NCBI GenBank assembly: GCA_002742765.1
Contig: DLUF01000114.1
Location: 1 to 36,630 of the forward strand
Direction of reading: 5' to 3'
DNA length: 36,630 nt
DNA from: Sulfurospirillum sp. UBA12182
GTDB lineage: Bacteria > Campylobacterota > Campylobacteria > Campylobacterales > Sulfurospirillaceae
Shown here: positions 6,259 to 36,630 of the stretch, piece by piece
Layout: each line of letters begins with the position of its first letter
Numbering within the stretch: position 1 is the stretch's first letter
Notes under the pieces: generated by a model
Seen by the model: the letters and a program-made list of their open reading frames with translations, nothing else
Told to the model about the DNA's origin: nothing
Databases searched by the model: none
Translations under genes and position numbers: made by a program

Positions 6259-9200
6259 GCCAAATAATAGCTGTGCACAAGTTGAAATAGTTTCTTCTCT
6301 CAATGGGGCAACTCCTACAATATCAAGAACTATAAATGGTACAGTTCATCAAACATCAGATCGATTTGACTATTATTCTTTTACTGTCAGCGCTTCAGGA
6401 ATATTAGATTTTAACTATACCGCAGACAAAACAAATGCTTCCTTTTTTATAGGATCGTCTTGTGGCGGTAGTCAATATTACTCTAATACTGATAACTCTG
6501 ATACTAAAAACCCTGCTCCTTTCTTTGTTTCCGCAGGTGATACTATTTATTTATTAATCGAACGACGTTATGATTCCTCTATGAACTATAGTATATCCGT
6601 AAACTACGCATCTCCAACTTTTTCAGGTAGTAATTTTAAAGACTTTTCTATTCTTTATTCTGAAAATCTACGTGGTGATATACGTATGATTGGTAACACT
6701 ATTATGGGACAAAGAAATTCGCAAGGAAATACTGTTTGTCCTAGCAACAATACAAATAATGCAGATGGTGATATTAGAACTCAACATTGGGATATAGATG
6801 GAGTTAGTTCAACATTTAATTCTTCCTCTGCAACTTTATCTATTCCAGAAGGAGCCATAATTCAAAAAGCTTATTTATATTGGCAAGGTAGAGTACTATC
6901 AAATCAATATAATAATGCAAAATCTATTAAGTTTCGACAGCCAGGAGCTCCAAATTATACAACTTTGACTGCTTCAGATAACAATATGCATTGGACTTCT
7001 TATGGATCATATTATCCTTATCAAGCTTCAGTAGAAGTCACTTCTCTTATAAATGGCTCGGGAATCTATACTGTTGCAGACCTTAACACATATGCAGGCA
7101 ACTATATAGATGGACTTGGAGCATATGGCGCATGGTCTTTAGTCGTTGTTTATAAAAAAGATGATGCACTTTTACAGAATATCACAATTTATGATGGATA
7201 TCAAACAATTGCATCCAATAGCTCTCAAAATTTTACTCTTTCTGGATTTCTTACCCCATCTAATGGAGATGTAAATTCTAAATTTCTTGTCTTTACAGGG
7301 AAAGGAGATGTCGACTTATTGCGTGATTATGTGAATATAAGTGGTACTAGACTTACCCGTTTTAACGACAACTCGATTGATAGTACCCAATTTAATACTT
7401 TTAATGCTTCTATTACTGAAAATAATTCTTATGTAACTTCTCGTAGTCCAAATTGTCAAAATAATTTAGGAATTGATATCCATACATACAATGTAGGTAC
7501 CTCTGGATTAGGCATTATAGGCAATAACCAAACAAATGCAACTCTTCAAATTGGAACTAATCAAGATGCATATTATTTATCTGTTTTTGCTTTTGCAACT
7601 GAACTTTATGAACCACGTGTCTGTTACTATATAGATACTATTAAACAAATCGATACAAATACGACTATCTTTGAAAATAAAAAGTTTATCGGAGAGATAG
7701 AAGCTGATACAGAATACACATTTGATATCTGGATTTCAAATATGAAAAAAAGCTCTTCTGATACTTTTATCGAAACAGCGAGATTAGTACAAGTATATAT
7801 GAATATGTATGATGTAGACTATTCTGAAAACTCAATGTCTATGCAAAACTTAGGAGAGGCTAGTAAACTATCTATAAGTGATGCTATTGATAACGATAAA
7901 GGAGAGTTTGCAAGTGATCAAAATAAATCTACATGGAGAGTTGGTATAGGTGCAGATCAAGATCAAGGTGGAACACTCGCTCCTGCTTCTAGTTTTAATG
8001 ATGACTCTAAAAAAGCATTTATATCTTATAAAGCAAAATTTCAAGTTGATGAGAATACAACAACGATAGACCTTGTAAATTTCTTTAAATTCAAAGCTTC
8101 TTTTCAAACTGATAGCATAACAATAGGCAGCGATAATGCTCAAGAAATAGAACAATGTCTTGATTTAAATACAACTGCAAGTGTAACACAACCACCAAAA
8201 GGTGCATTTAATGTTGTAAATGCTAACTTTTCTGGGGGTTCACTAAATAGTGATTCAGATACTGCTCTTTTTACTCAAGTAAGTAGTCAAAACTTTAGTG
8301 TAAAAGTTGTCGCTTTAAACAATGATTTTCAAACCCTTCAAAGCTATACTGGTGATGTTAATCTTTCTTTAATTTCATCTCCATCATATACAGGTGATGA
8401 ATCTAGCGACCAAGCTTTATGTGATAGTGCTACAAGTGTAGGCTCACCAATTACTATACAATTCAATAATGAAACTATTAAACCAATTTCTCTAGTTACA
8501 AATGATGCAATGAAAAGTGCTTCTTTTAAAATATCTTTTGAAAGTAATGGTGTCGTCAAACATGTATGCTCTACTGATAGTTTTGCAATCCGCCCTGCTA
8601 ACTATAGTTATAGTTTTACACCTTCAACATTAATTGGAGGAAAAGAACATACACTTACATCAAACGCTGGAACTTCTTTGTATGATGGTACTGCGTCTCA
8701 GACTATAAGTCTTATTATTCCACCTGGATGTGGACTTGGTGCTGATACAAACACAACATCTATAACTTTTTCAGGAGGCATTGATAGTTCTCTTGTACGA
8801 ACAGGAAACATAGGAGACTATAATATAACAGTTGTAGATAATACATGGACAGGGATAGACCAAGGAACTTCTCATGGTGATGATTGTATAGTAGGTAGTT
8901 TTGAAAATACTCCTTCGGGAGGGTTGGTAGGTTGTAACACGCAAACTTCACAAACGTTCACATTTAGTCCAAAAGATTTTTTAAATACTCTTGCTCTACA
9001 AAATTTTAATGCGAATAACTTTACTTATATCTCGAATGACAATAATATGAGTGCTACTGCAACTGCAACTATCACAGCAAGATTAGACAACAATACAACT
9101 GCATCTGCTTACTCTGCAAATTGTTATGCAAAAGACATCAATACCACTATCTCTTTGATAGATGAACCTTTAGCTTCAGAATGGCTTACAAATGATAGAA

Positions 9201-9955
9201 ATGCAACTGTTCGCATAATGTTTTTTGATACCAATACAACCAATTCAGAACTAAATGCCACTGGAAGTTCCACTCTTTCATCAGGTCAAAACAATTTTAA
9301 CAATGGTATAGCAAACATAACTATCAACTTTAACTTTGACAGGAACACCTCTATTCCTGATGAGCCTTTCCATATATCTAGAAATGATTTTAATATCTCT
9401 GTAATTGATACAAATGGTGTTACAGGTATTGATTTTAATAGAACAAATGATACAAATACAACTTTTTACTATGGTAGAGTTTATGCCCCAGATCAAACTT
9501 TTAATGGCAACAATGGGAATGCACAGTTTCATTATGAAGTTTATTGTGAAGACTGCAATCGAACCTCTTTAAACATAGCAGGAAATGAAAGTATAAACAA
9601 TATTAACTGGTATCAAAACACTTTACATGTAAATACTACTTTTGGTACATACAACAACCTTAACCCTTCTGCTTTAAATGGTACACTTATAGGAGGAACA
9701 ACACTCAATACCCTTGGTCTAACAGCCCCTAACTTACCTCATGTAGACAGGATAACCTATACACCGCACCCTTGGTTAGTCTTTAACCCAAGCAATCCAA
9801 ATGCGACAACAGGTGATTTTATGGTTGAATTTACAAGCAGAGGTGGTTGGGGTGGAGAAGGAACCGTTGATGGCTCTGATGATAATAACACTGGGCTATT
9901 TATCCACAGGCAAGATACTATCAACAATCAAATCCAAAAAAGAATGGACTGGTAA
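6188..9955 (+). CDS. Large secreted MshQ-like pilus-associated protein
   Basis: A 1255-residue protein with a signal peptide (hydrophobic residues ~7-21, cleavage near IADS). Residues ~25-135 resemble a bacterial pre-peptidase C-terminal domain (SEPNNSC, then YYSFTVSASG). Residues ~150-320 form a beta-rich module with GDIRMIGNT and AYLYWQGR. Around 794-806 CSTDSFAIRP matches the pattern I associate with MshQ/DUF6701 proteins of the MSHA pilus. The whole is rich in Asn, Thr and Ser and lacks a C-terminal anchor, ending KRMDW. Its stop overlaps the next ATG (TAATG), so it is coupled to three prepilin-like genes. It likely sits at the pilus tip or cell surface. In Vibrio mshQ comes last; here it is first. 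MshQ identity is by motif and context only. Confidence 0.75.
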   Translation: MLHTNKIVFLFLIILNSVLIADSEPNNSCAQVEIVSSLNGATPTISRTINGTVHQTSDRFDYYSFTVSASGILDFNYTADKTNASFFIGSSCGGSQYYSNTDNSDTKNPAPFFVSAGDTIYLLIERRYDSSMNYSISVNYASPTFSGSNFKDFSILYSENLRGDIRMIGNTIMGQRNSQGNTVCPSNNTNNADGDIRTQHWDIDGVSSTFNSSSATLSIPEGAIIQKAYLYWQGRVLSNQYNNAKSIKFRQPGAPNYTTLTASDNNMHWTSYGSYYPYQASVEVTSLINGSGIYTVADLNTYAGNYIDGLGAYGAWSLVVVYKKDDALLQNITIYDGYQTIASNSSQNFTLSGFLTPSNGDVNSKFLVFTGKGDVDLLRDYVNISGTRLTRFNDNSIDSTQFNTFNASITENNSYVTSRSPNCQNNLGIDIHTYNVGTSGLGIIGNNQTNATLQIGTNQDAYYLSVFAFATELYEPRVCYYIDTIKQIDTNTTIFENKKFIGEIEADTEYTFDIWISNMKKSSSDTFIETARLVQVYMNMYDVDYSENSMSMQNLGEASKLSISDAIDNDKGEFASDQNKSTWRVGIGADQDQGGTLAPASSFNDDSKKAFISYKAKFQVDENTTTIDLVNFFKFKASFQTDSITIGSDNAQEIEQCLDLNTTASVTQPPKGAFNVVNANFSGGSLNSDSDTALFTQVSSQNFSVKVVALNNDFQTLQSYTGDVNLSLISSPSYTGDESSDQALCDSATSVGSPITIQFNNETIKPISLVTNDAMKSASFKISFESNGVVKHVCSTDSFAIRPANYSYSFTPSTLIGGKEHTLTSNAGTSLYDGTASQTISLIIPPGCGLGADTNTTSITFSGGIDSSLVRTGNIGDYNITVVDNTWTGIDQGTSHGDDCIVGSFENTPSGGLVGCNTQTSQTFTFSPKDFLNTLALQNFNANNFTYISNDNNMSATATATITARLDNNTTASAYSANCYAKDINTTISLIDEPLASEWLTNDRNATVRIMFFDTNTTNSELNATGSSTLSSGQNNFNNGIANITINFNFDRNTSIPDEPFHISRNDFNISVIDTNGVTGIDFNRTNDTNTTFYYGRVYAPDQTFNGNNGNAQFHYEVYCEDCNRTSLNIAGNESINNINWYQNTLHVNTTFGTYNNLNPSALNGTLIGGTTLNTLGLTAPNLPHVDRITYTPHPWLVFNPSNPNATTGDFMVEFTSRGGWGGEGTVDGSDDNNTGLFIHRQDTINNQIQKRMDW
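9623..9632. repeat. TTACATGTAA copy 3
   Basis: Exact copy inside the MshQ-like gene; read as Leu-His-Val. Confidence 0.9.
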
Positions 9956-19879: not shown

Positions 19880-20460
19880 TGAGTTCAAAAAAGACAATTT
19901 TAAACAGTATCAAAGCAAACAAATCACAAAATCCTATCGAGCTACCTGAAACAAATATCCCTCATATGCACTATGAAGATAAAAATGAAAAATTTGCCAC
20001 TATGCTAGCTAGCGTAGGTGGAAACGCTATATGGCTTGAAGATGGAGATATTAATGCTTTTGTAAAAGAACATTACAAAGATGTAACAGTCATCACAAGT
20101 ACCATCGAAAATCTTACATGTAAAACTAAAGAAGCCAATTTAGCGCAAACTCCACATGAATTAGAAGATGTTGAACTTGCTATCATAGAAGGAGAGTTTG
20201 GAGTTGCTGAGAATGGTGCTGTTTGGGTAAAAAACCCTAAAAACAAGTATAGAGCACTTTACTTTTTAGCAAAACAACTCCTTATCGTTGTAAAAAAAGA
20301 CGCCATTGTAGACACTATGCATGAAGCTTATGAAAGAGTTCGTTTTGATAAGGATGGATATGGTTTGTTCATCAGTGGACCATCTAAAACAGCTGATATC
20401 GAGCAATCCCTTGTCATCGGAGCACATGGCCCAACAGCTGCTTGTGTGCTATTTGTTTAG
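19879..20460 (+). CDS. lutC: Lactate utilization protein LutC
   Basis: A 193-residue LUD-domain protein (DUF162) with the family features VELAIIEGEFGVAENGAVWV (~100-119) and VIGAHGPTA near the end. It is the third subunit of the LutABC L-lactate oxidation complex. Its ATG overlaps the lutB stop. The next gene on the opposite strand ends with no spacing at all. A TTACATGTAA word lies inside at 20114-20123, here read in the L-T-C-K frame. Confidence 0.92.
   Translation: MSSKKTILNSIKANKSQNPIELPETNIPHMHYEDKNEKFATMLASVGGNAIWLEDGDINAFVKEHYKDVTVITSTIENLTCKTKEANLAQTPHELEDVELAIIEGEFGVAENGAVWVKNPKNKYRALYFLAKQLLIVVKKDAIVDTMHEAYERVRFDKDGYGLFISGPSKTADIEQSLVIGAHGPTAACVLFV
20114..20123. repeat. TTACATGTAA copy 7
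   Basis: Exact copy inside lutC; the only coding copy not read as Leu-His-Val (Leu-Thr-Cys-Lys). Confidence 0.9.
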
Positions 20461-20865
20461 TTACATCAGTTGAGAAAGTATCACCACTAACGCCATCACG
20501 AAGATAACAGCGTGATGGAAAAAGTGGTGAAACCAGTGTATATGGTCTGTTTTTTTAACAATCCAATCTGAGAGAAAAAAAGTTACGATAACTCCCAAAG
20601 CTAAAGCAACTTTAAGCCACATCAAAACTGCTATACTAGTAAAATCATACATAAATAACAATGCAAGCCCACTTAAAAATACGATAGGAACATTGATAAA
20701 CATAAGTTTTCTAGCTCTAGTGCTTATCTTTGGGGCAAAGAGTTTATACTCCTCTTTTGGGTTTTGATGCTTCAAAACATCTATAATATATGTTATAAAA
20801 AATATAGAACCAACAAAGAGGATAACACTGCTAAGATGGATAATTTTTAAAACTAAAAATAACAT
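20461..20865 (-). CDS. Four-helix membrane protein, CopD/DUF2269-like
   Basis: A 134-residue inner membrane protein with four hydrophobic segments (~3-25, 52-72, 76-96, 110-132). The start KIIHLSSVILFVGSIFF resembles the His-containing first helix of CopD, HemJ and DUF2269 proteins. A His-rich stretch (HIHWFHHFFHH, ~98-108) precedes the last helix. Heme or copper binding is possible but unproven. It starts directly after the stop of the LOG-family gene (TAG then ATG, no gap), making it the third gene of an EamA-LOG operon, and is convergent with lutC with no spacing. Confidence 0.6.
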   Translation of the reverse strand: MLFLVLKIIHLSSVILFVGSIFFITYIIDVLKHQNPKEEYKLFAPKISTRARKLMFINVPIVFLSGLALLFMYDFTSIAVLMWLKVALALGVIVTFFLSDWIVKKTDHIHWFHHFFHHAVIFVMALVVILSQLM

Positions 20866-21426
20866 CTATTTCCATTTTGGACTTGGTGGAATATAAGAGC
20901 TAAGTCTTTCTAGTAATTTTTCTTGATCACTCTCAAAGATAGCCATAGCCAAAAGATTTGGAGCAACAAAGCCCTCCTCTTTCATATGTTCTAAAAAGGA
21001 AAAAAGCTTAGTATAGTACCCATTTATATCCAAAAAAGCGATTGGTTTTTTGTGATATCCAAGTTGCGCCCATGTCCATGCTTCAAATATCTCTTCTAAA
21101 GTTCCAATACCACCAGGAAGTGCTACAAAAGCATCACAACTACTTGCCATCAAAGCTTTTCGCTCATGCATATCACGTACGACATGTAACTCTTGTACAC
21201 CCCTGTGGGCTAACTCTTTTTCTTCTAAAGAGCGAGGAATGACACCTAAAACGTCTCCTTGGTTTTGCAAAACACTATCAGCAATCGCACCCATAATCCC
21301 AACACTTCCTCCACCATATACAAGGCTATGACCAGATTTTACCAGCAAAGCACCAAAGTTTTTCGCCTCTTGTACATAGATATCCTCTTTTCCTGAAGAT
21401 GAGCCACAAAAAACCGTTATTTTCAA
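20866..21426 (-). CDS. LOG family phosphoribohydrolase (TIGR00730)
   Basis: A 186-residue protein of the LOG / 'lysine decarboxylase-like' family, with CGSSSG at the start, GGGSVGIMG at 38-46, the ERK site near 88-90 and the key motif PGGIGTLEE at 104-112. Members cleave nucleoside 5'-monophosphates to base and ribose 5-phosphate (cytokinin activation in plants); true lysine decarboxylase activity is not expected. The start codon is TTG (21424-21426), one base after the stop of the EamA gene, with AAGGAGA upstream as support. Confidence 0.92.
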   Translation of the reverse strand: MKITVFCGSSSGKEDIYVQEAKNFGALLVKSGHSLVYGGGSVGIMGAIADSVLQNQGDVLGVIPRSLEEKELAHRGVQELHVVRDMHERKALMASSCDAFVALPGGIGTLEEIFEAWTWAQLGYHKKPIAFLDINGYYTKLFSFLEHMKEEGFVAPNLLAMAIFESDQEKLLERLSSYIPPSPKWK

Positions 21427-21427
21427 A

Positions 21428-22342
21428 TTATCTCCTTCTTAATCTAATTTTTTTCAACTTTTGAGTTGGTAACTGGGAGATAAAAACCCCACTCAAAATG
21501 ATACCAGAAGCAACTAGTTGTTCAAAAGTAAGTCGCTCCCCAAGAAAGATAAAAGCTAAGATAACAGCAAAAACTGGGATAAGATTTATATAAACAGACG
21601 CTTTAGAAGCCTCTACACGGCTCAAAGCAAAATTAAACAAACCATATCCTCCTAAAGTTACAATCACACCCAGATATCCTACCCATAGTACTGATTCTAA
21701 AGTTATATTCATAGGAACGTTATAGTATTCCCAAATCGCAAAAGGTAAAAAGAAAACAGCCCCAACAAAAGATTGGATAGCGGTGAGAAAAATAGCAGAA
21801 AATTTCGCACTCAAATAGCGTATCGAGATAGCATAACCAGCACCGCAAATCATCGCCAAAAACTCTAAAGTATTTCCAAGCAAAGGGTTAGAAGCGTTTT
21901 CTTGGGCATCAGCTCCTAAGCTCAACCAAACAGCACCACTTACCGCCAAGAAAGAGCCTAAAAGCAATTTTCTTGTGATAACTTCTTTAAGAACTATCCC
22001 AGCACCAATAGCTGTTATAAGAGGCATCATCGAAGTAATCATTCCAGCTTGTCCAGCGGTGGTATATTGGAGTGCTTTTGCTTCAAAGATAAAGTACAAA
22101 CATGGTTCAAAAAGAACCATCAATCCTATATATTTGATATCTTGTTTTGTAAAATTTAAAGCAAGAAATCTTTTTATAAAGTAAAAAAAACAAAAACTTG
22201 CAATCAGCATACGCCCAAAGATAACACTCATAGGTCCGATTGGTCCGATGGCAGACTTTAATGCGATAAAAGAACTTGCCCATACTAGCATAGCCATACA
22301 CAAAACACCAACAGCGATAAAATCTATATTTGTTTTTTTCAC
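21428..22342 (-). CDS. EamA/DMT family transporter
   Basis: A 304-residue membrane protein with ten hydrophobic segments in two EamA repeats (~8-135 and ~155-290), as in RhaT/YdcZ-type drug/metabolite transporters. The second repeat ends VILAFIFLGERLTFEQLV, a common DMT pattern. Substrate unknown. The frame starts with GTG (22340-22342); the in-frame upstream codons contain a stop, and an out-of-frame ATG nearby is not used. First gene of an operon with the LOG enzyme and the CopD-like protein. Confidence 0.88.
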   Translation of the reverse strand: MKKTNIDFIAVGVLCMAMLVWASSFIALKSAIGPIGPMSVIFGRMLIASFCFFYFIKRFLALNFTKQDIKYIGLMVLFEPCLYFIFEAKALQYTTAGQAGMITSMMPLITAIGAGIVLKEVITRKLLLGSFLAVSGAVWLSLGADAQENASNPLLGNTLEFLAMICGAGYAISIRYLSAKFSAIFLTAIQSFVGAVFFLPFAIWEYYNVPMNITLESVLWVGYLGVIVTLGGYGLFNFALSRVEASKASVYINLIPVFAVILAFIFLGERLTFEQLVASGIILSGVFISQLPTQKLKKIRLRRR

Positions 22343-22409
22343 GTCCCATCTTTCTTATCAAAATTAAAAGAGCAAATTCTATCATAAATATCGAAAAAAT
22401 TTGATTTTA

Positions 22410-22439
22410 TTGACAACGCAATTATTAAAACTGTATGAT
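22410..22439 (+). promoter_or_regulatory. Sigma-70-type promoter of the dual-SBP diguanylate cyclase
   Basis: TTGACA at 22410-22415 and TATGAT at 22434-22439, 18 bases apart, give one of the best -35/-10 pairs in the window. Transcription would start about 60 bases before the ATG at 22507. Confidence 0.6.
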
Positions 22440-22506
22440 AGAGTGAGTAAGAGGTTTTTATATCTATATAATTTAACATATCTGAAACTTTATTAGGTAC
22501 AAGGTT

Positions 22507-24975
22507 ATGTTGCGAACTCTTATACTTTTTCTTCTCCTTAGCATTACTCTTTTTGCAAAAGAAACTACTATTTCCTTAAAACTTAGCTGGTTACATCAAT
22601 TTCAATTTGCAGGCTTTTACATAGCGAAAGAAAAAGGATTTTATAAAGATATTGGCTTAGAAGTAACCTTTGAAGAGTTAGATACAAAAGATTGTGTTGT
22701 TGATGAAGTATTAGAGGGCAAATACGATTTTGGTATAGGAAAATCCTCCTTGATTATTGACCAAGCACAAGGAAAAGACCTCGTAGCACTTTTAGGCATT
22801 TTCCAACACTCCCCTTCTGTTTTAATCACCACAAATCCCACACTCAAAACTGTAAAAGATTTGTACAAAAAAAGGGTAATGGTAACACCATCAGAGATTA
22901 ATTCAATCAGTGTTAAAGCAATGTTCAGCGCTGAGGGGATATCCCAAAAAGATATCACTATCCAGCCCCACTCTTTTAAACTTGAAGATTTGATTGAACA
23001 AAAAACAGATGCTATGGCATCTTACATCTCAAATGAACCTTTTATCTTAGATAATTTAGGTATAAAATATAATGTTATTGACCCAAGAGATTATGGTCTT
23101 GATTTTTATGGTGATATCCTTTTTACATCTCGCAAATTTTTAGAGAAAAATCCTACAATTTCACGCAAATTTTATGAAGCCACTAAAAGAGGTTGGGAAT
23201 ATGCATTTTCAAATATAAAAGAGAGTGTACAGATTGTTTTTGAAAAGTACAATACACAAAACAAATCCTTAGAACATTTAATCTATGAAGCAGAGGCTCT
23301 AAAAAAACTCGCTTACGATGAGAAAGGAGAATTTGGAACACTTTCACAAAAAAGATTTGATGAAATTTCAGATATTTACAAACTCTTTAAACTCATTCCT
23401 CCTCAATTTAATCCAAAAAAATTTATCGACCCATTAGGCTTTGCTAAAAAACAAGTTCAAGTTGGTATCCTAGCAAAAAGAGGTTTACATGTAACACTTC
23501 AAAGGTGGCAAAGAACGATTGATTATCTCAATGCTAATTTAGCAGAATTTTATTTTATCTTGCAGCCTTTAGATTTTTCTCAAGTTCCTCTAGCTATCGA
23601 GAAAAAGGAGATTGATTTTATTTTAATTAACCCACTACTTTATATCCAAATGGCACACAAATACAATATCTCAAGAATTGCTACCTTGCAAACTTGCTGT
23701 GATATAAAGACAAAACCTATCAAGTCTTTTGGTTCTGTTATCTTTACAAAAGTTGAGAGTCAAATCAACTCACTCGAAGAGTTAAAAGGGAAAAAAATTG
23801 CAGCAGTCGATAAAAACTCTTTTGGAGGTTGGATTCTTGGCTATGAAACACTATTTGATCATGGAATTAAGTTATCTGATATAGAGGTCTCTTTTTCTAA
23901 AACACACGATAATGTTGTCTTTGATGTTCTTTTAGGTAAAGTTCAAGCTGGTATCGTTAGAACCGATACCTTAGAGTCTATGGATAAAAACAAAGATATA
24001 GATATAAGAAATTTTAAAATTCTTAATCTCCAAACATATGAAAACTTTCCATTTTTTATAAGCACTAAGCTCTATCCAGAGTGGCCTTTTGCAAAACTAG
24101 ACCATACTGATGATAGTCTTTCTTATAAAGTTTTATCCACACTCATAGATATGAATGATGATTTGCATATAAAACAAAAAACAAATATCTATGGTTGGAG
24201 TATTCCGCAAGATTATTCTGTTGTCAATCAAGTGCTAAAGAAACTAAGAATTTTTCCCTTTGATAAACAAGAGATAACATATAAAGATGTCTTAATCAGC
24301 TATGAAAAAGAGTTCTTATTTGCTTTTGGAGTTTTTGGCTTAATTATGCTCACTCTTATCTATACAAAATTATCAAATAAAAACTTAAAAGAGTTCAATG
24401 AAAGATTAGAGATAATGGTAAAAAAAAGAACACAGGCTTTAAAAAGGATGAATCAAAAATTAAAAAACCTTGCCCAAACAGATGAATTAACACAAATAGA
24501 CAATAGACGCTCCTTTCTAAGAAAAACAACCATTTACATCAACCTTGCAAAAAGAAATCAAACACCTCTGTGTTTTCTCTCTTTAGATATAGATTTTTTT
24601 AAAAAAATTAATGACAATTATGGGCATCATATAGGGGATAAAGTTTTAAAACTTTTTGCATATACTGTTGCAAAAACACTCAGAAATGTTGATCTTTTTG
24701 GCAGAATTGGTGGTGAAGAGTTTGGAATTTGCCTTCAAAATACTTCTTTAGAAGATGCTATGAGTAAAGCAGAAGATATCAGAAAAAAAGTCTCTCTAGC
24801 ATACCTAAAAACCGATACCCAAGAGGAGATTTCTGTTACTGTAAGCATAGGTGTGGTAGAATTTAACGATTCATTGACACTCACTTCTCTCATGAAATTA
24901 GCAGATGAATCTATGTATAAAGCCAAAACAAATGGAAGAAATCAAATCTATGCGATTCAAAAAAAATGCAATTAA
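22507..24975 (+). CDS. Diguanylate cyclase with two periplasmic solute-binding domains
   Basis: An 822-residue sensor enzyme. A signal peptide (~1-17) is followed by an NMT1/THI5-like domain (~20-300, start LKLSWLHQFQFAGFYIAKEKG) and a second binding domain of the PhnD type (~315-585, with VPLAIEKKEIDFILINPLLY). One transmembrane helix (~603-622) and a short coiled coil lead to a GGDEF domain with active site GGEEF at 735-739 and inhibitory I-site RNVD at 726-729, five residues before it. It should make c-di-GMP in response to a periplasmic ligand, perhaps a thiamin-precursor-, sulfonate- or phosphonate-like molecule; the ligand is unknown. The next gene overlaps by 10 bases. Confidence 0.92.
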   Translation: MLRTLILFLLLSITLFAKETTISLKLSWLHQFQFAGFYIAKEKGFYKDIGLEVTFEELDTKDCVVDEVLEGKYDFGIGKSSLIIDQAQGKDLVALLGIFQHSPSVLITTNPTLKTVKDLYKKRVMVTPSEINSISVKAMFSAEGISQKDITIQPHSFKLEDLIEQKTDAMASYISNEPFILDNLGIKYNVIDPRDYGLDFYGDILFTSRKFLEKNPTISRKFYEATKRGWEYAFSNIKESVQIVFEKYNTQNKSLEHLIYEAEALKKLAYDEKGEFGTLSQKRFDEISDIYKLFKLIPPQFNPKKFIDPLGFAKKQVQVGILAKRGLHVTLQRWQRTIDYLNANLAEFYFILQPLDFSQVPLAIEKKEIDFILINPLLYIQMAHKYNISRIATLQTCCDIKTKPIKSFGSVIFTKVESQINSLEELKGKKIAAVDKNSFGGWILGYETLFDHGIKLSDIEVSFSKTHDNVVFDVLLGKVQAGIVRTDTLESMDKNKDIDIRNFKILNLQTYENFPFFISTKLYPEWPFAKLDHTDDSLSYKVLSTLIDMNDDLHIKQKTNIYGWSIPQDYSVVNQVLKKLRIFPFDKQEITYKDVLISYEKEFLFAFGVFGLIMLTLIYTKLSNKNLKEFNERLEIMVKKRTQALKRMNQKLKNLAQTDELTQIDNRRSFLRKTTIYINLAKRNQTPLCFLSLDIDFFKKINDNYGHHIGDKVLKLFAYTVAKTLRNVDLFGRIGGEEFGICLQNTSLEDAMSKAEDIRKKVSLAYLKTDTQEEISVTVSIGVVEFNDSLTLTSLMKLADESMYKAKTNGRNQIYAIQKKCN
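23485..23494. repeat. TTACATGTAA copy 8
   Basis: Exact copy in the dual-SBP diguanylate cyclase gene; read as Leu-His-Val in the second binding domain. Confidence 0.9.
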
Positions 24976-31238: not shown

Positions 31239-31254
31239 AACCATCTTATTTTTT
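31226..31254 (+). terminator. Terminator palindrome holding two convergent stop codons
   Basis: A 23-base perfect palindrome (31226-31248: TAAGATGGTTT, one central A, AAACCATCTTA) is followed by T6 at 31249-31254. The cupin TAA (31236-31238) lies at its centre and the cheR stop (31246-31248) at its right end. T run only on the plus strand. Confidence 0.85.
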
Positions 31255-32082
31255 AGTATAATAACAACTACTTCCAAACCCATGTTTTTGAAGATATTCA
31301 TTTTCTGGTACTATGTCTGCATGTCCTAGATAAATCCTACCACCCTCTTTTAAAAGTTTAGAGAATTTTTGCATAGCTTTTATACGAAAATCTTCATCAA
31401 AATATATAAGCATATTCCTAGAAAAAATAATATCAAATTTTCCAAAAGAGAGAAATTTATCATCAAAAACATTAATTTGAGAAAAATCTACATGTAAAAA
31501 TTTTTCTTTTTTTATCTGATATTTATCACTTACTAATGTAAAGTACTTCTCTTTTAAATTATCACTCAATTTATGTAAAGACCGTGCATTGTAGATACCA
31601 TTTTTTGCTTTTTGAATCGCTTCAGAGTTGATATCTATCCCAATTATATTAAAACGTTTTCTAAAAGTATGGTCTTCTTCAAGCATCATCGAGATAGTGT
31701 AAACTTCTTCACCACTTGCACATGGAGCGCACAAGACATCAACTCCTTCTCTAGTTTTTGCAAACTCTATGGCTTCTTGAAGCTGAATTAACTCTCTATA
31801 AAAATATGTTTCATTAACCGTCAATAAATTAACTAAATCTTGTTTCATCTCTTTGTTATATTGAATTTCATCAAAAAGTTTTCTAAAACTATTGATATTT
31901 TTTTCTTCACAAAAGAGTCTTATTCTTGTTTCTATAATCGCTTTTTTAGGAAAGAGATCAACACCTATTTCCCTTTTGATAAAATGCAGTAAATCACTCA
32001 GCCCATAAGTATTGAAAGGTTCATTTATTACTTCAACTTCTTGATTTTCTATATCAATTTTTTTCTTTTTCCTAAAAAACAC
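31246..32082 (-). CDS. cheR: Chemotaxis protein methyltransferase CheR
   Basis: A 278-residue CheR. The N-terminal helical domain includes NETYFYRE near residue 95; the SAM-binding domain has APCASGEEVYT (~122-132), DINSEAI and FSRNMLIYFDE. It methylates glutamates of MCP receptors using S-adenosylmethionine. The start codon is GTG (32080-32082) inside a TAGTG overlap with the cheB stop. First ~20 residues are a basic extension (FFRKKKKIDIENQEVEV). Third gene of MCP-cheB-cheR. Confidence 0.95.
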   Translation of the reverse strand: MFFRKKKKIDIENQEVEVINEPFNTYGLSDLLHFIKREIGVDLFPKKAIIETRIRLFCEEKNINSFRKLFDEIQYNKEMKQDLVNLLTVNETYFYRELIQLQEAIEFAKTREGVDVLCAPCASGEEVYTISMMLEEDHTFRKRFNIIGIDINSEAIQKAKNGIYNARSLHKLSDNLKEKYFTLVSDKYQIKKEKFLHVDFSQINVFDDKFLSFGKFDIIFSRNMLIYFDEDFRIKAMQKFSKLLKEGGRIYLGHADIVPENEYLQKHGFGSSCYYTKK

Positions 32083-32651
32083 TACTTTTCCTCAAATATT
32101 TTAATTTGCTGTATAATCCCATCTAAATCTAATGCTAAAATATTTGGATTTAGCTCTAAAGCGCGTTTAGGCATTCCAAAGACAATGGCACTCTTTTCAC
32201 TCTCTGCGATACACTTTGCCCCTGCATTTTGTAAGTTTGACATAGCCTGAGCTCCATCATAACCTATACCAGTAAGAAGCACTGCTAAAATATCAAATCT
32301 ATTTACAAGTCCTACTGCTGAATTAAAAAGATGGTCAACACTTGGATTATATTGAGAATCAACTCCATCTACACAATTAACCTCTATACCAAAAGAACTC
32401 CCTAAAAGTTCACAATGTTTTGAGCAAATATATATATTTGATTCACAGACACTATGTCTACTATCTATCATAGAAACTTTCAAAGGTAACTCACTATCAA
32501 ACTGCTTTACAAAACTTTCTATGAAGTTTTTATTCATATGCTGCGCAATGATAATAGGAGTCTTAAACTCCTTTTTAAGGGAATTTAAGATTTTTTTCAA
32601 ATGTCCAGGGCCTCCAGTAGAAGCACCTATCAATATAAGTTTTTGCCTCAT
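32082..32651 (-). CDS. cheB: Chemotaxis methylesterase CheB without receiver domain
   Basis: A 189-residue protein made only of the CheB methylesterase domain: Ser11 in GASTGGPG, His38 in IAQHMN and Asp132 in GIGYDGA form the catalytic triad. It removes methyl groups from MCPs. The receiver domain that normally lets CheA control CheB is absent, as in Campylobacter CheB, so activity must be set otherwise. Its ATG directly follows the MCP stop with no gap. Confidence 0.95.
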   Translation of the reverse strand: MRQKLILIGASTGGPGHLKKILNSLKKEFKTPIIIAQHMNKNFIESFVKQFDSELPLKVSMIDSRHSVCESNIYICSKHCELLGSSFGIEVNCVDGVDSQYNPSVDHLFNSAVGLVNRFDILAVLLTGIGYDGAQAMSNLQNAGAKCIAESEKSAIVFGMPKRALELNPNILALDLDGIIQQIKIFEEK

Positions 32652-34343
32652 TTATGTTCTAAATTCAGCAAGCTTATTATTGAGTGTTTCTGTCATTTTA
32701 TTCAGATGCTCAGCAGCACTTGCAATCTCTTCAACACTTCTTGCATTTTGTGTTGAAATATTGTTTATTTTAGCAACGTTTTCTATCATATGCCCCATAT
32801 CATCACCTGTTTTTATGTAATTATTCACAGTATTATCAGCAACTTTTGTAGCTAAATTCATGATATCAAAAAGTTCGTGGATTTTTGTTTCTACACCATT
32901 GGCAGTAGAAGCCAATTCTTCAACTTTTTTAGAATTAACGCTCATTTGTTCACTTGAATCCATAATTGATTGGACTATAACATTAATTGTTGCATTGATT
33001 TCTACTAAAGATTTTTGTGTTCTCTCAGCCAACTTCCTTACTTCATCCGCAACAACAGCAAATCCACGACCATGTTCTCCTGCTCGTGCAGCTTCTATAG
33101 CAGCATTTAAAGCTAATAAATTTGTTTGCTCAGCAATATCACCAATAACATCTAAAATATTTTTTACTTGTTCTGCATCGGAACTTAACTGTTGAATTTT
33201 TTGAGCCAATTCAATCTCAGTTCGTGCACTATTTTGTATATCTTCTGTTAATTTTAAAACAACACTATTAGCTTCTTTCAAATGGTTATTTGCTTTTACC
33301 ATATCTTCTTTACTATGTTTTGCCTCTGTTATACTCTCTTTCATAGTAGATTTAACGATATCTGCATTTTTTGTCGTTGTATTAACGATATTTGTTGCTT
33401 CTTCTACCAATTTACCAACTTCTAAAGAAGTAGTTGAAAGTTCGTGGGAGATAGAAGAGTTTTCATTTGAAAGATTTTTTGCATCAGCAATAAGAACCCT
33501 TACTTTTTCTATAAATTTATTTATTCCTTCACTAGCATCAGCAATTTCATCATTACCTACAATTTCTAATTTCCTTGTTAAATCACCATCACCACTTGAG
33601 AGATTTTGTGTTCTTTCGATTAAATTATTTAAAGGATTTGTAATATAAATTTTAACAATGCCATAATTGGCAAGAATATTTAAGACAACCAAAATAAAGG
33701 CTACACTGATAAAGAAAAGTATTTCAATGGAAATTTCATTATTTGCTTCTTGCGTTAAAGCTATTAGTTCTTTTTCTACATTATCAACGTACACTCCTGT
33801 GCCTATCATCCATTTTAAAGGTTCAAATGCCATAGCATAACTAAATTTTTTCTCGGGATTACCATCAGCAGTTTTAGGCCAAAGGTATTCTACTATTCCC
33901 CCTCCATTTTGAGCAACTTTGATTAACTCTTTTATAACATAAACACCATTTTTATCTTTCATATTTTGAAGGCTTTTACCTTCAAGTTCAGGTTTTAAAG
34001 GGTGTAAAACTGTTGTAGCATCATATTCAAATACAAAAATATAGCCACTTTTATCGTCAAAAAATCTAATATCTCTTAACACTGCTTTAATAGCATTTAT
34101 AATCTCTTCCTTAGAAGCTCCTGTTTGTGTTTTACGATTATAAATACCTTCGATAATATCATAAATAATTTTTATCTCATTTTTTAACTCTTCTTTTCTT
34201 GCATTATAAGTATTAGCTTCAAAATGTGACAAAAAAACTGCCGATTCTTTTTTCATACTATTATAAGCTAAAGCAATAAGAGCTGTACCAACAACAACCA
34301 AAGAAACTGTTAAAGAAACAAGTATACGTTTTGATATTTTCAT
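32652..34343 (-). CDS. Methyl-accepting chemotaxis protein, sCache_2 type
   Basis: A 563-residue chemoreceptor. TM1 ~8-28; periplasmic single Cache domain (~30-195) with [16 protein letters not shown] and [14 protein letters not shown]2 ~205-227; HAMP ~228-282; then the MCP signalling hairpin with the conserved [20 protein letters not shown] and [13 protein letters not shown]. sCache_2 domains often bind small carboxylates, but the ligand is not known. No C-terminal CheR/CheB-tethering pentapeptide is seen. AAAGGG precedes ATG 34343. Co-transcribed with cheB and cheR. Confidence 0.95.
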
Positions 34344-34403: not shown

Positions 34404-35915
34404 CTATAAATCAATAGTTACTCTATTTTTCCCTTGTTGTTTCGATGTGTATAATGCATTATCAACCCTATCAAAAAGGGTATTAATATCTTCCCCTTCT
34501 CTTATCTGAGCAATTCCAAAACTTGCCGTTTTATGCCCAACAATTTTAAAGATATGATCTTCTATTGTATTTTTTAACTTTTGAGCAACTTTATGTGCAC
34601 CTTCTATATCACATTCAGGAAGTATGATTAAAAACTCTTCACCACCCCATCGACCTAAACTATCTGTATTTCGTTTATTCTTATTTAAAAGTTCAGCTAG
34701 TTCTACTAAAAAAGAATCCCCCACACTATGTCCAAATTTATCATTGATATCTTTAAAATCATCAATATCTAATAAAACAACACAAAAAGGTCTATAATAA
34801 CGCTGAAAATTTTTCTTTTCATACTCTAATATTTCGTCAAGTTTTAATCTATTATAAACTTTTGTTAAGCTATCAGTTGTGGAAAGTTTTTGTAATTGTT
34901 CATTATATTTTTTAAGTTGGCTTTGTCTATATAGTAACAATAAAAATACAACACCTAAAAAGCCTAAAATTTTCAATAAAAAGCTATAATCTGAAGGTTT
35001 TTCAAAGTTAACAGATATCCATTTATTTAAAATTTCTTGATGTTTTTCGGGCTCAATTGCATCAATCGCTTTTTCAAAAATAGACACTAAAAGTGGTTCA
35101 TCATTTCTTGTTCCAATTCCTAAGCTCCATTTTTCTTCAAACTTACCTGTAATTTTTAATTGTCCTATATAACTTTTTTGTATATGATATCCAGCAGTAG
35201 CAAGAGTTCCTATAAATCCAAATAATTCATTTTTTTCAACTTTATTAAGCCCTTCTTTTAGACTATTAACCTCAATTAAATTAAGTGTTGGATATTTTAC
35301 TTGTAAAATCTCCCCATAAGCATAACCTTTCACAATACCTATTTTTTTATTTTTTATCAATGCTACATCAGAATAAAATATCTCATCATTTCTTGTTACC
35401 AAAACAAGTGGTATTTGCAGATAGGGTTTTGTAAAATCCATATAAAGTTTTCTCTCAGGAGTTGGCATCACTAAAGAGTATATATCACATTTTCTTTGCT
35501 TCGCATACTCAATTGATTCTAACCAAGTTTTTGTATCTACCATTTCAATTGGAATATTTATCTTTTCTTGAAGTAGCTTAATATAATCGCTACTCATACC
35601 AATATGTTTTCCATTTTCATTTTTTTCTAAAGGCATCCAGTCAGGATCAATACACATAGTGATTTTTTGTTTATTTTCTAAATACTTCTTCTCTTCATAA
35701 CTTAAAACAATGTTTTTGCTTTTTCCAATTTGGACATTTCGATTCCATTTTGATTTGATAGCAAAAATTTTTTGTTTATCCATATTTTCAAGAACTTTAT
35801 TGAGTATAGAAATTAATTTTTTTTCATTAGACATCATATAAAGATCTTCTGGAGTAAAATCTAAAAAAAAATTAGAATTTACATGTAAGTTAGAAAGCAT
35901 ATTATCATTAATCAT
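34404..35915 (-). CDS. C-terminal fragment: SBP_bac_3 domain plus GGDEF
   Basis: An open frame of 503 codons from the first ATG after the frameshift. It holds the tail of the first binding domain (~1-70), a complete second SBP_bac_3 domain (~85-295), a transmembrane helix (~308-327) and a GGDEF domain with GGEEF at 424-428 and I-site RNTD five residues before it. Enzyme residues are intact. Without the signal peptide the binding domain would not reach the periplasm, so on its own the product would probably be misplaced. No convincing ribosome site was found before this ATG. Confidence 0.7.
   Translation of the reverse strand: MINDNMLSNLHVNSNFFLDFTPEDLYMMSNEKKLISILNKVLENMDKQKIFAIKSKWNRNVQIGKSKNIVLSYEEKKYLENKQKITMCIDPDWMPLEKNENGKHIGMSSDYIKLLQEKINIPIEMVDTKTWLESIEYAKQRKCDIYSLVMPTPERKLYMDFTKPYLQIPLVLVTRNDEIFYSDVALIKNKKIGIVKGYAYGEILQVKYPTLNLIEVNSLKEGLNKVEKNELFGFIGTLATAGYHIQKSYIGQLKITGKFEEKWSLGIGTRNDEPLLVSIFEKAIDAIEPEKHQEILNKWISVNFEKPSDYSFLLKILGFLGVVFLLLLYRQSQLKKYNEQLQKLSTTDSLTKVYNRLKLDEILEYEKKNFQRYYRPFCVVLLDIDDFKDINDKFGHSVGDSFLVELAELLNKNKRNTDSLGRWGGEEFLIILPECDIEGAHKVAQKLKNTIEDHIFKIVGHKTASFGIAQIREGEDINTLFDRVDNALYTSKQQGKNRVTIDL
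35879..35888. repeat. TTACATGTAA copy 11
   Basis: Exact copy in the split diguanylate cyclase gene; read as Leu-His-Val. Confidence 0.9.
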
Positions 35916-36019
35916 TACAGTAGCAGCATAATAGTCATCAATTGTGGCATCAGCTAAATCAAAAGCGACAGCTTCTAAAGCTTCTAAAGGTGTATTAAAC
36001 TCTATAATTTTTATATCTT

Positions 36020-36499
36020 TTATGTTTCTTTTATTAACTTTGAACTTTTACGTCCTTTCACTAAGGCTAATCGCTTATCTTTTAGCATTTCTAATGAGAT
36101 AATATTTTTATCTTTTATTTTTGTTATTAAAGCGTACTTAATATCTAAAACTTTATGGCTATAAAAATTCTCCAGTTTATAGTTTTTTTCCATTGCTATT
36201 GGTAAAATCAAATCTAGTTCAGATTTTTCAAATTTTGAAAGTAAATTTGGCCATGAATCAGTTATAAATACTACTTCTAATCCTGCATAATTTGAAAGTA
36301 ATTGTATGTAATCAACTAAAAATCCTTCGGAAACACCATTACGATTAAAAGCATAAGGATACCAATTGACTTGATTTGATACAGTAATAGATTTTTTTGT
36401 TTCTATCCAAGAGAGTTCTTCAGAAGAAAAATTAAAGTCATTAGAAAATAAAAAAGTAGTAGAAAACAAAAAAGCTAATAAATATATACGAATCAACAT
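36020..36499 (-). CDS. N-terminal fragment: signal peptide and part of SBP_bac_3 domain
   Basis: A 159-residue fragment: signal peptide MLIRIYLLAFLFSTTFLFS, then an SBP_bac_3 half-domain (VSNQVNWYPYAFNRNG; GFLVDYIQLLS; SELDLILPIAM; KDKRLALVKG) ending where the frame breaks. The frame can be extended upstream to a TTG at 36541, but ATG 36499 gives a proper signal peptide and an AAGGA 8 bases before it. Confidence 0.7.
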   Translation of the reverse strand: MLIRIYLLAFLFSTTFLFSNDFNFSSEELSWIETKKSITVSNQVNWYPYAFNRNGVSEGFLVDYIQLLSNYAGLEVVFITDSWPNLLSKFEKSELDLILPIAMEKNYKLENFYSHKVLDIKYALITKIKDKNIISLEMLKDKRLALVKGRKSSKLIKET

Positions 36500-36603: not shown

Positions 36604-36630
36604 CGCGAAACCGGCGGCGACCTACATTTC
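36604..36630 (-). rRNA. 3' end of 5S ribosomal RNA (partial)
   Basis: Read on the minus strand, the last bases run GAAATGTAGGTCGCCGCCGG then TTTCGCG and T6 (36598-36603). GTAGGTCGCCGCC is the typical 3' end of 5S rRNA in this group. Only the 3' end is in the window; 23S and 16S genes should lie to the right. The T6 may be part of the operon terminator. Confidence 0.75.

Follow-up and report, generated by a model that had tools for sequence, protein, structure and literature searches.

CdgH of Vibrio cholerae is described as having amino-acid-binding periplasmic domains in tandem, placed before a cytoplasmic GGDEF domain (PMC5431781). A gene with the same architecture, that is, two tandem PBPb/SBP_bac_3 domains before GGDEF, was found in the DNA analysed here, the likeness being judged by architecture. 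This DNA (referred to below as the window, 36,630 bases) is the entire contig C42 of a draft assembly (G000) of 2.25 Mb in 120 contigs. Unlike CdgH, the window gene is broken, and its first solute-binding domain (SBP1) has a tyrosine where arginine 107 is expected. By analogy, the intact relatives of the window gene should work like CdgH.

BvgS is a histidine kinase, not a cyclase. Its periplasmic tandem Venus-flytrap region (PDB 4q0c) is the best PDB sequence match to one of the intact orthologues of the window gene (L005), with a value of 7.3e-37 over the binding domains. As regards the broken state, the window gene resembles dgcE, dgcQ and dgcN of Shigella flexneri, in which the sensor part is interrupted and the GGDEF motifs are kept downstream (PMC11327459). 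For the Shigella genes, the published account reports measured activity and internal methionine codons close to the stops (PMC11327459), whereas in the window gene the nearest ATG lies 105 nt from the stop and has no ribosome-binding site before it.

Frames and domains of the interrupted gene

The first fragment of the gene is an ORF of 159 residues (36020..36499, minus strand), which was recognized from the ORF list, its translation and Pfam, and which comprises a signal-peptide-like start (judged by eye) and most of SBP1. Its start is either ATG 36499 or TTG 36541 (minus strand). The SBP_bac_3 match in this fragment covers positions 1-96 of 132 of the Pfam family and residues 38-132 of the ORF (about 36388-36104, minus strand). 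The frame is closed by a TAA (36020..36022, minus strand), so the single uninterrupted frame that defines a tandem-SBP diguanylate cyclase is lacking here. The sequence continues in another open frame of 547 codons (34404..36047, minus strand; ORFs and alignment), which encodes the remainder of SBP1, the second binding domain (SBP2), a membrane segment and the GGDEF domain. The first ATG of this frame, at 35915, gives 503 amino acids up to the stop at 34404. Chance would not account for an ORF of 503 codons that is 48-55% identical to six full-length orthologues.

The two frames share only 28 bases (36047 to 36020) and, because they overlap nowhere else, the register change must fall within this interval, which includes a run of four adenines (A4; 36029..36032, minus strand; sequence and alignment). 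In an alignment with seven intact orthologues and the sister species, the residues match the orthologues on either side of the break. The first-pass annotation had described a minus-strand frame that stops at 36020 and a continuation in another frame down to the GGDEF end, and this was confirmed by the ORFs, Pfam and the orthologue alignment; the A4 run, too, lies exactly where it had been placed, inside the register-change interval. The two ORFs should be annotated as one interrupted gene, and not as a small secreted binding protein and a separate cyclase.

Pfam searches with both fragments placed two SBP_bac_3 domains before the membrane segment, and the break divides the first of them and leaves the second (35016..35663, minus strand; SBP_bac_3 positions 1-130 of 132, supported by orthologue comparison) whole. 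The GGDEF domain (34422..34880, minus strand; PF00990, Pfam positions 2-161, 4e-42) contains a GGEEF motif (34632-34646, minus strand) and an RxxD motif in the form RNTD (34662-34673, minus strand), both located in the sequence and by alignment. The GGEEF motif, of the GG[D/E]EF active-site type, is invariant in all nine rows of the alignment.

The gene in other genomes

The 503-residue fragment used as a query gave matches in all of the 41 genomes searched, because GGDEF domains occur everywhere. Orthologues were defined as matches outside the genus that extend from query residue 1 or 2 to about 500 with at least 48% identity, and seven genomes of the 41-genome search carry one (G009, G019, G003, G006, G012, G022 and G004). 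Remoter matches beginning at the first residues (e.g. G025, G032, L062, L070 and L109) were left out. An eighth record, L053 of Sulfurospirillum sp. UBA2217, came from a second scan and encodes 944 residues in a single frame. The gene is unbroken and in one frame in 7 of the 7 orthologues inspected outside the genus; G003 was counted from its match row only, in which the scores equal those of G019. One TAA was flagged in the matches of G019, G003, G004 and G002, and for G019, G004 and G002 it was read as the terminal stop.

The full-length orthologues, found in Sulfurospirillaceae and relatives (e.g. L005, L008, L009 and L053), have the same domain order as the broken gene but are uninterrupted, and those of G009, G019, G006 and G012 are 52-55% identical to it over SBP2, the membrane segment and GGDEF. 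Two binding domains are present in the proteins of G009 (712 residues), G006 (713) and G012 (707), in agreement with the full length of about 700 residues that had been expected for the rejoined product. Three are present in those of G019 (949 residues), G022 (954) and G004 (948), and across all such records the length is 944-954 residues; the third domain, where present, is N-terminal. Orthologues with the same break had been named in advance as the finding that would overturn the reading, and none of the eight full-length records outside the genus is split (seven inspected, G003 by row). In the one readable congener (G002), both the site and the kind of break differ.

Within the genus, the gene was present in 3 of 3 genomes examined (G000, G001 and G002), and none of the copies was shown to be intact. 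The copy of the sister species (G002) has lost about 260 nt, from the end of SBP1 to the middle of SBP2, and changes frame there (break site at L012 2565-2600, contig G002:C23, minus strand; comparison with orthologues). Its first frame, of 263 amino acids, reaches the end of SBP1 and the remainder lies in another frame. The copy in G001 is cut by a contig end inside the gene, with 247 codons left. Neither broken copy (G000 or G002) has lost the catalytic GGEEF or RxxD motif. The breaks in these two readable copies are independent of each other, and two different breaks of one sensor gene in two species suggest that its input is dispensable in the genus.

The three domains differ in their conservation. 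In SBP2 of G000, all 55 residues that are invariant in the seven orthologues are kept (0/55 departures). In SBP1, departures were counted at 9 (G000) and 13 (G002) of the 40 columns invariant in the seven orthologues, and this domain thus appears loosely conserved in the genus. The GGDEF domain of G000 also departs at 12 of 67 invariant columns, so a part of the SBP1 divergence reflects a long branch. Before the break, SBP1 departs at 5 of 22 columns, and the others, taken together, at 9 of 128; the excess is weak (Fisher p 0.035, without correction) and the numbers are small. The replacements in SBP1 of G000 include an invariant tryptophan at position 150, which is arginine. In the SBP fold, an arginine in the region of position 107 commonly holds the carboxylate of the ligand. 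Ligand binding by SBP1 is doubtful, since this arginine, invariant in the seven orthologues, is tyrosine in G000.

The continuing frame contains no additional stop across its 547 codons. Neutral drift would have to reach 0.031-0.046 substitutions per site before the probability of finding no stop drops to 0.05. No further decay was found downstream of the break over the 547 codons and SBP2, which is compatible only with a recent break. The pristine downstream part would mean that the break is very recent, or that it is an error, or that the downstream frame is still under selection.

Origin and consequences of the break

We consider it probable that the break is a genuine mutation of recent date, which inactivated a sensor gene that is being lost by the genus. 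The gene codes for a membrane-bound diguanylate cyclase with a periplasmic sensor built of two tandem amino-acid-type solute-binding domains, and in the sequence as given it is interrupted by a net one-base register change in the first of these domains. The first frame would then yield a secreted, truncated binding domain ending after 159 residues, and the remainder would be untranslated or, if started internally, would lack the signal peptide that the periplasmic binding domain needs. Started at any internal ATG, the second frame has no signal peptide (by eye), and no Shine-Dalgarno-like motif stands before the 11 in-frame ATGs of its first 1200 nt. Loss of function is the simplest outcome. 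We infer that the living cell carries this mutation and has thereby lost ligand-controlled synthesis of c-di-GMP. The locus looks like an ordinary broken sensor gene, i.e. a case of gene decay and not of a new mechanism.

A mutation is favoured because frameshifts are few in the part of the assembly that was sampled, because the sister species has a break of its own and because a paralogue carries a nonsense codon; it is further supported by the loose conservation of SBP1 in the genus and by the records outside the genus, 8 of 8 of which are full-length in one frame (G003 by row only). Three observations count against it: a consensus error would look the same, with one base changed at a short run of A; the pristine downstream part fits either a very recent mutation or none; and the departures in SBP1 are small in number, in a lineage with a long branch.

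The frameshift rate was estimated by comparing a sample of G000 (910,606 bases in 61 stretches, i.e. 0.91 of 2.25 Mb) with a sample of G002 (1,110,632 bases in 60 stretches). Genes were compared when a counterpart with at least 38% identity existed, overlapping ORFs were removed and similarity was demanded on both sides of a break. Seven of the 272 G002 genes compared with G000 were flagged; five of the flags were stops within the first 33 query residues, which were dropped, without case-by-case inspection, as over-long starts or poor N-terminal alignments, and two were internal frameshifts. Internal frameshifts were thus seen in 2 of 272 genes of the G000 sample, the window gene and a DUF3373 protein gene, the sample having been chosen to contain the window, so that the count of the window gene is not independent. 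The scan is blind to any gene for which the G002 sample contains no counterpart, and the broken paralogue (G000:C119) came to light separately. The assembly is not frameshift-ridden, because only these 2 of the 272 compared genes show an internal frameshift.

A base-calling or consensus error, in which the gene of the cell is intact and the draft has miscounted one base, is a possible but rather unlikely cause. The assembly is a draft of 120 contigs, the change fits the A4 run, and the 547 codons that follow are free of other damage, with every invariant residue of SBP2 kept; moreover, re-sequencing of Vibrio fischeri is reported to have corrected a frameshift in a GGDEF protein (PMC2330054). 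An error is made less probable by the rarity of frameshifts in the sampled assembly (2/272 genes), even though the window gene alone contains 51 runs of 4-8 A and 35 runs of 4-9 T, and by the other two broken genes seen in G000 (C57 and C119), neither of which is a homopolymer slip. The copy of the sister species is broken as well.

It is improbable that the locus is split and yet useful, with an internal start giving rise to a sensor-less membrane GGDEF protein that makes c-di-GMP constitutively, so that the break rewires the gene. The catalytic motifs survive in the two broken copies of the genus, the frame is open, and dgcE, dgcQ and dgcN of S. flexneri, which have nonsense mutations before GGDEF, are reported still to raise c-di-GMP (PMC11327459). 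In the window gene, however, the first in-frame ATG lies 105 nt beyond the stop, and over the initial 1200 nt of this frame 0 of the 11 in-frame ATGs are preceded by a Shine-Dalgarno-like motif. Residual activity of a sensor-less cyclase made from an internal start is possible, and if the cyclase part is still made, the gene would offer a naturally occurring example of a sensor severed from its enzyme, as reported for Shigella. A wider form of this idea, that tandem-SBP cyclases of the genus repeatedly lose the sensing part and keep a catalytically complete GGDEF frame, bound to the membrane and made from internal starts, so that c-di-GMP becomes uncoupled from the signal, seems to us just as hard to credit. 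Sensor cyclase genes in the genus are interrupted by a frameshift (G000), a deletion (G002) and a nonsense codon (the paralogue), but the sensor part makes up about three quarters of the gene and breaks in it are therefore expected from size alone.

Returning to mutation or error as the origin of the break, both had been preferred in the first-pass annotation to programmed frameshifting, and this preference is borne out by the unconserved break and by ordinary folding of the RNA. Programmed frameshifting or slippage giving the full-length protein is very improbable: the A4 run might let a single lysine tRNA shift by one base, as judged from the sequence, but the break is not conserved (one frame in all seven intact orthologues inspected outside the genus), a canonical slippery heptamer is absent in frame at the break, as had been stated, and the 84 nt downstream of the A4 run fold no better than shuffled sequences (z -0.40), so this explanation was rejected. 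Phase variation by inversion is reported for a c-di-GMP phosphodiesterase (PMC9286219). Homopolymeric phase variation was rejected for the window gene: the run at the break, as had been argued, is only A4 and too short, and longer runs (T9 at 35871 and A8 at 35824) lie elsewhere, downstream of the break and in frame. Scans of the gene for repeats, promoters and terminators gave nothing above chance at the break, and no programmed frameshifting or homopolymer switching was reported for such a gene in the titles and abstract beginnings covered by a literature search.

Other broken genes and the gene neighbourhood

The DUF3373 protein gene of G000 (L145 568-2108, plus strand; contig C57) has its frameshift near position 1520, not at a homopolymer, and its counterpart in G002 is a single frame of 547 residues. 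The paralogue (L002 492-3113, minus strand; contig C119, about 20381-23002) has the architecture NMT1-SBP-PAS-GGDEF. Its codon 470 is an in-frame TAA, at a position occupied by K or E in three intact homologues, and it is a second broken sensor cyclase in G000. In the reverse comparison, 1 of 268 G002 genes was flagged (L231, about 8891-9554, contig G002:C20); the corresponding G000 protein (L241 18971-19624) matches it in two frames, which may point to a frameshift in G002. Earlier rounds of the scan had flagged 8 of 65 G000 genes, mostly antisense or over-long ORFs, and after filtering 6 of 127. An error-ridden assembly as a general cause is unsupported, as most of these early flags were antisense or over-long ORFs. 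Reassignment of the genetic code was also considered and dropped: the stops were mostly in antisense ORFs, and all three stop codons stood opposite many residues.

Upstream of the broken gene, the contig stops within a 5S rRNA gene, of which it contains the 3' end (36610..36630, minus strand), as indicated by similarity to C57:1-63 and to the 5S ends of G002 and G003. This identity rests on the contig-end similarity, since Rfam gave no match to any family in the window; RF00001 was detected in G003 and in none of the three assemblies of the genus. The 3' end of 5S rRNA stands at contig ends in both G000 and G002 (window 36610-36630; L012 3391-3424; L164 1-50), and the three assemblies of the genus seem to lack rRNA operons.

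The downstream neighbours of the broken gene, identified as ORFs and by domain search, are all on the minus strand and encode (i) a Cache-HAMP-MCP chemoreceptor (32652..34343), (ii) a CheB methylesterase domain protein (32082..32651) and (iii) a CheR methyltransferase (31246..32082). In G002, the intervening MCP gene of the window is absent, and CheB (L012 935-1501) and CheR come directly after the broken cyclase gene. An MCP gene also follows the cyclase gene in G001, G006 and G012.
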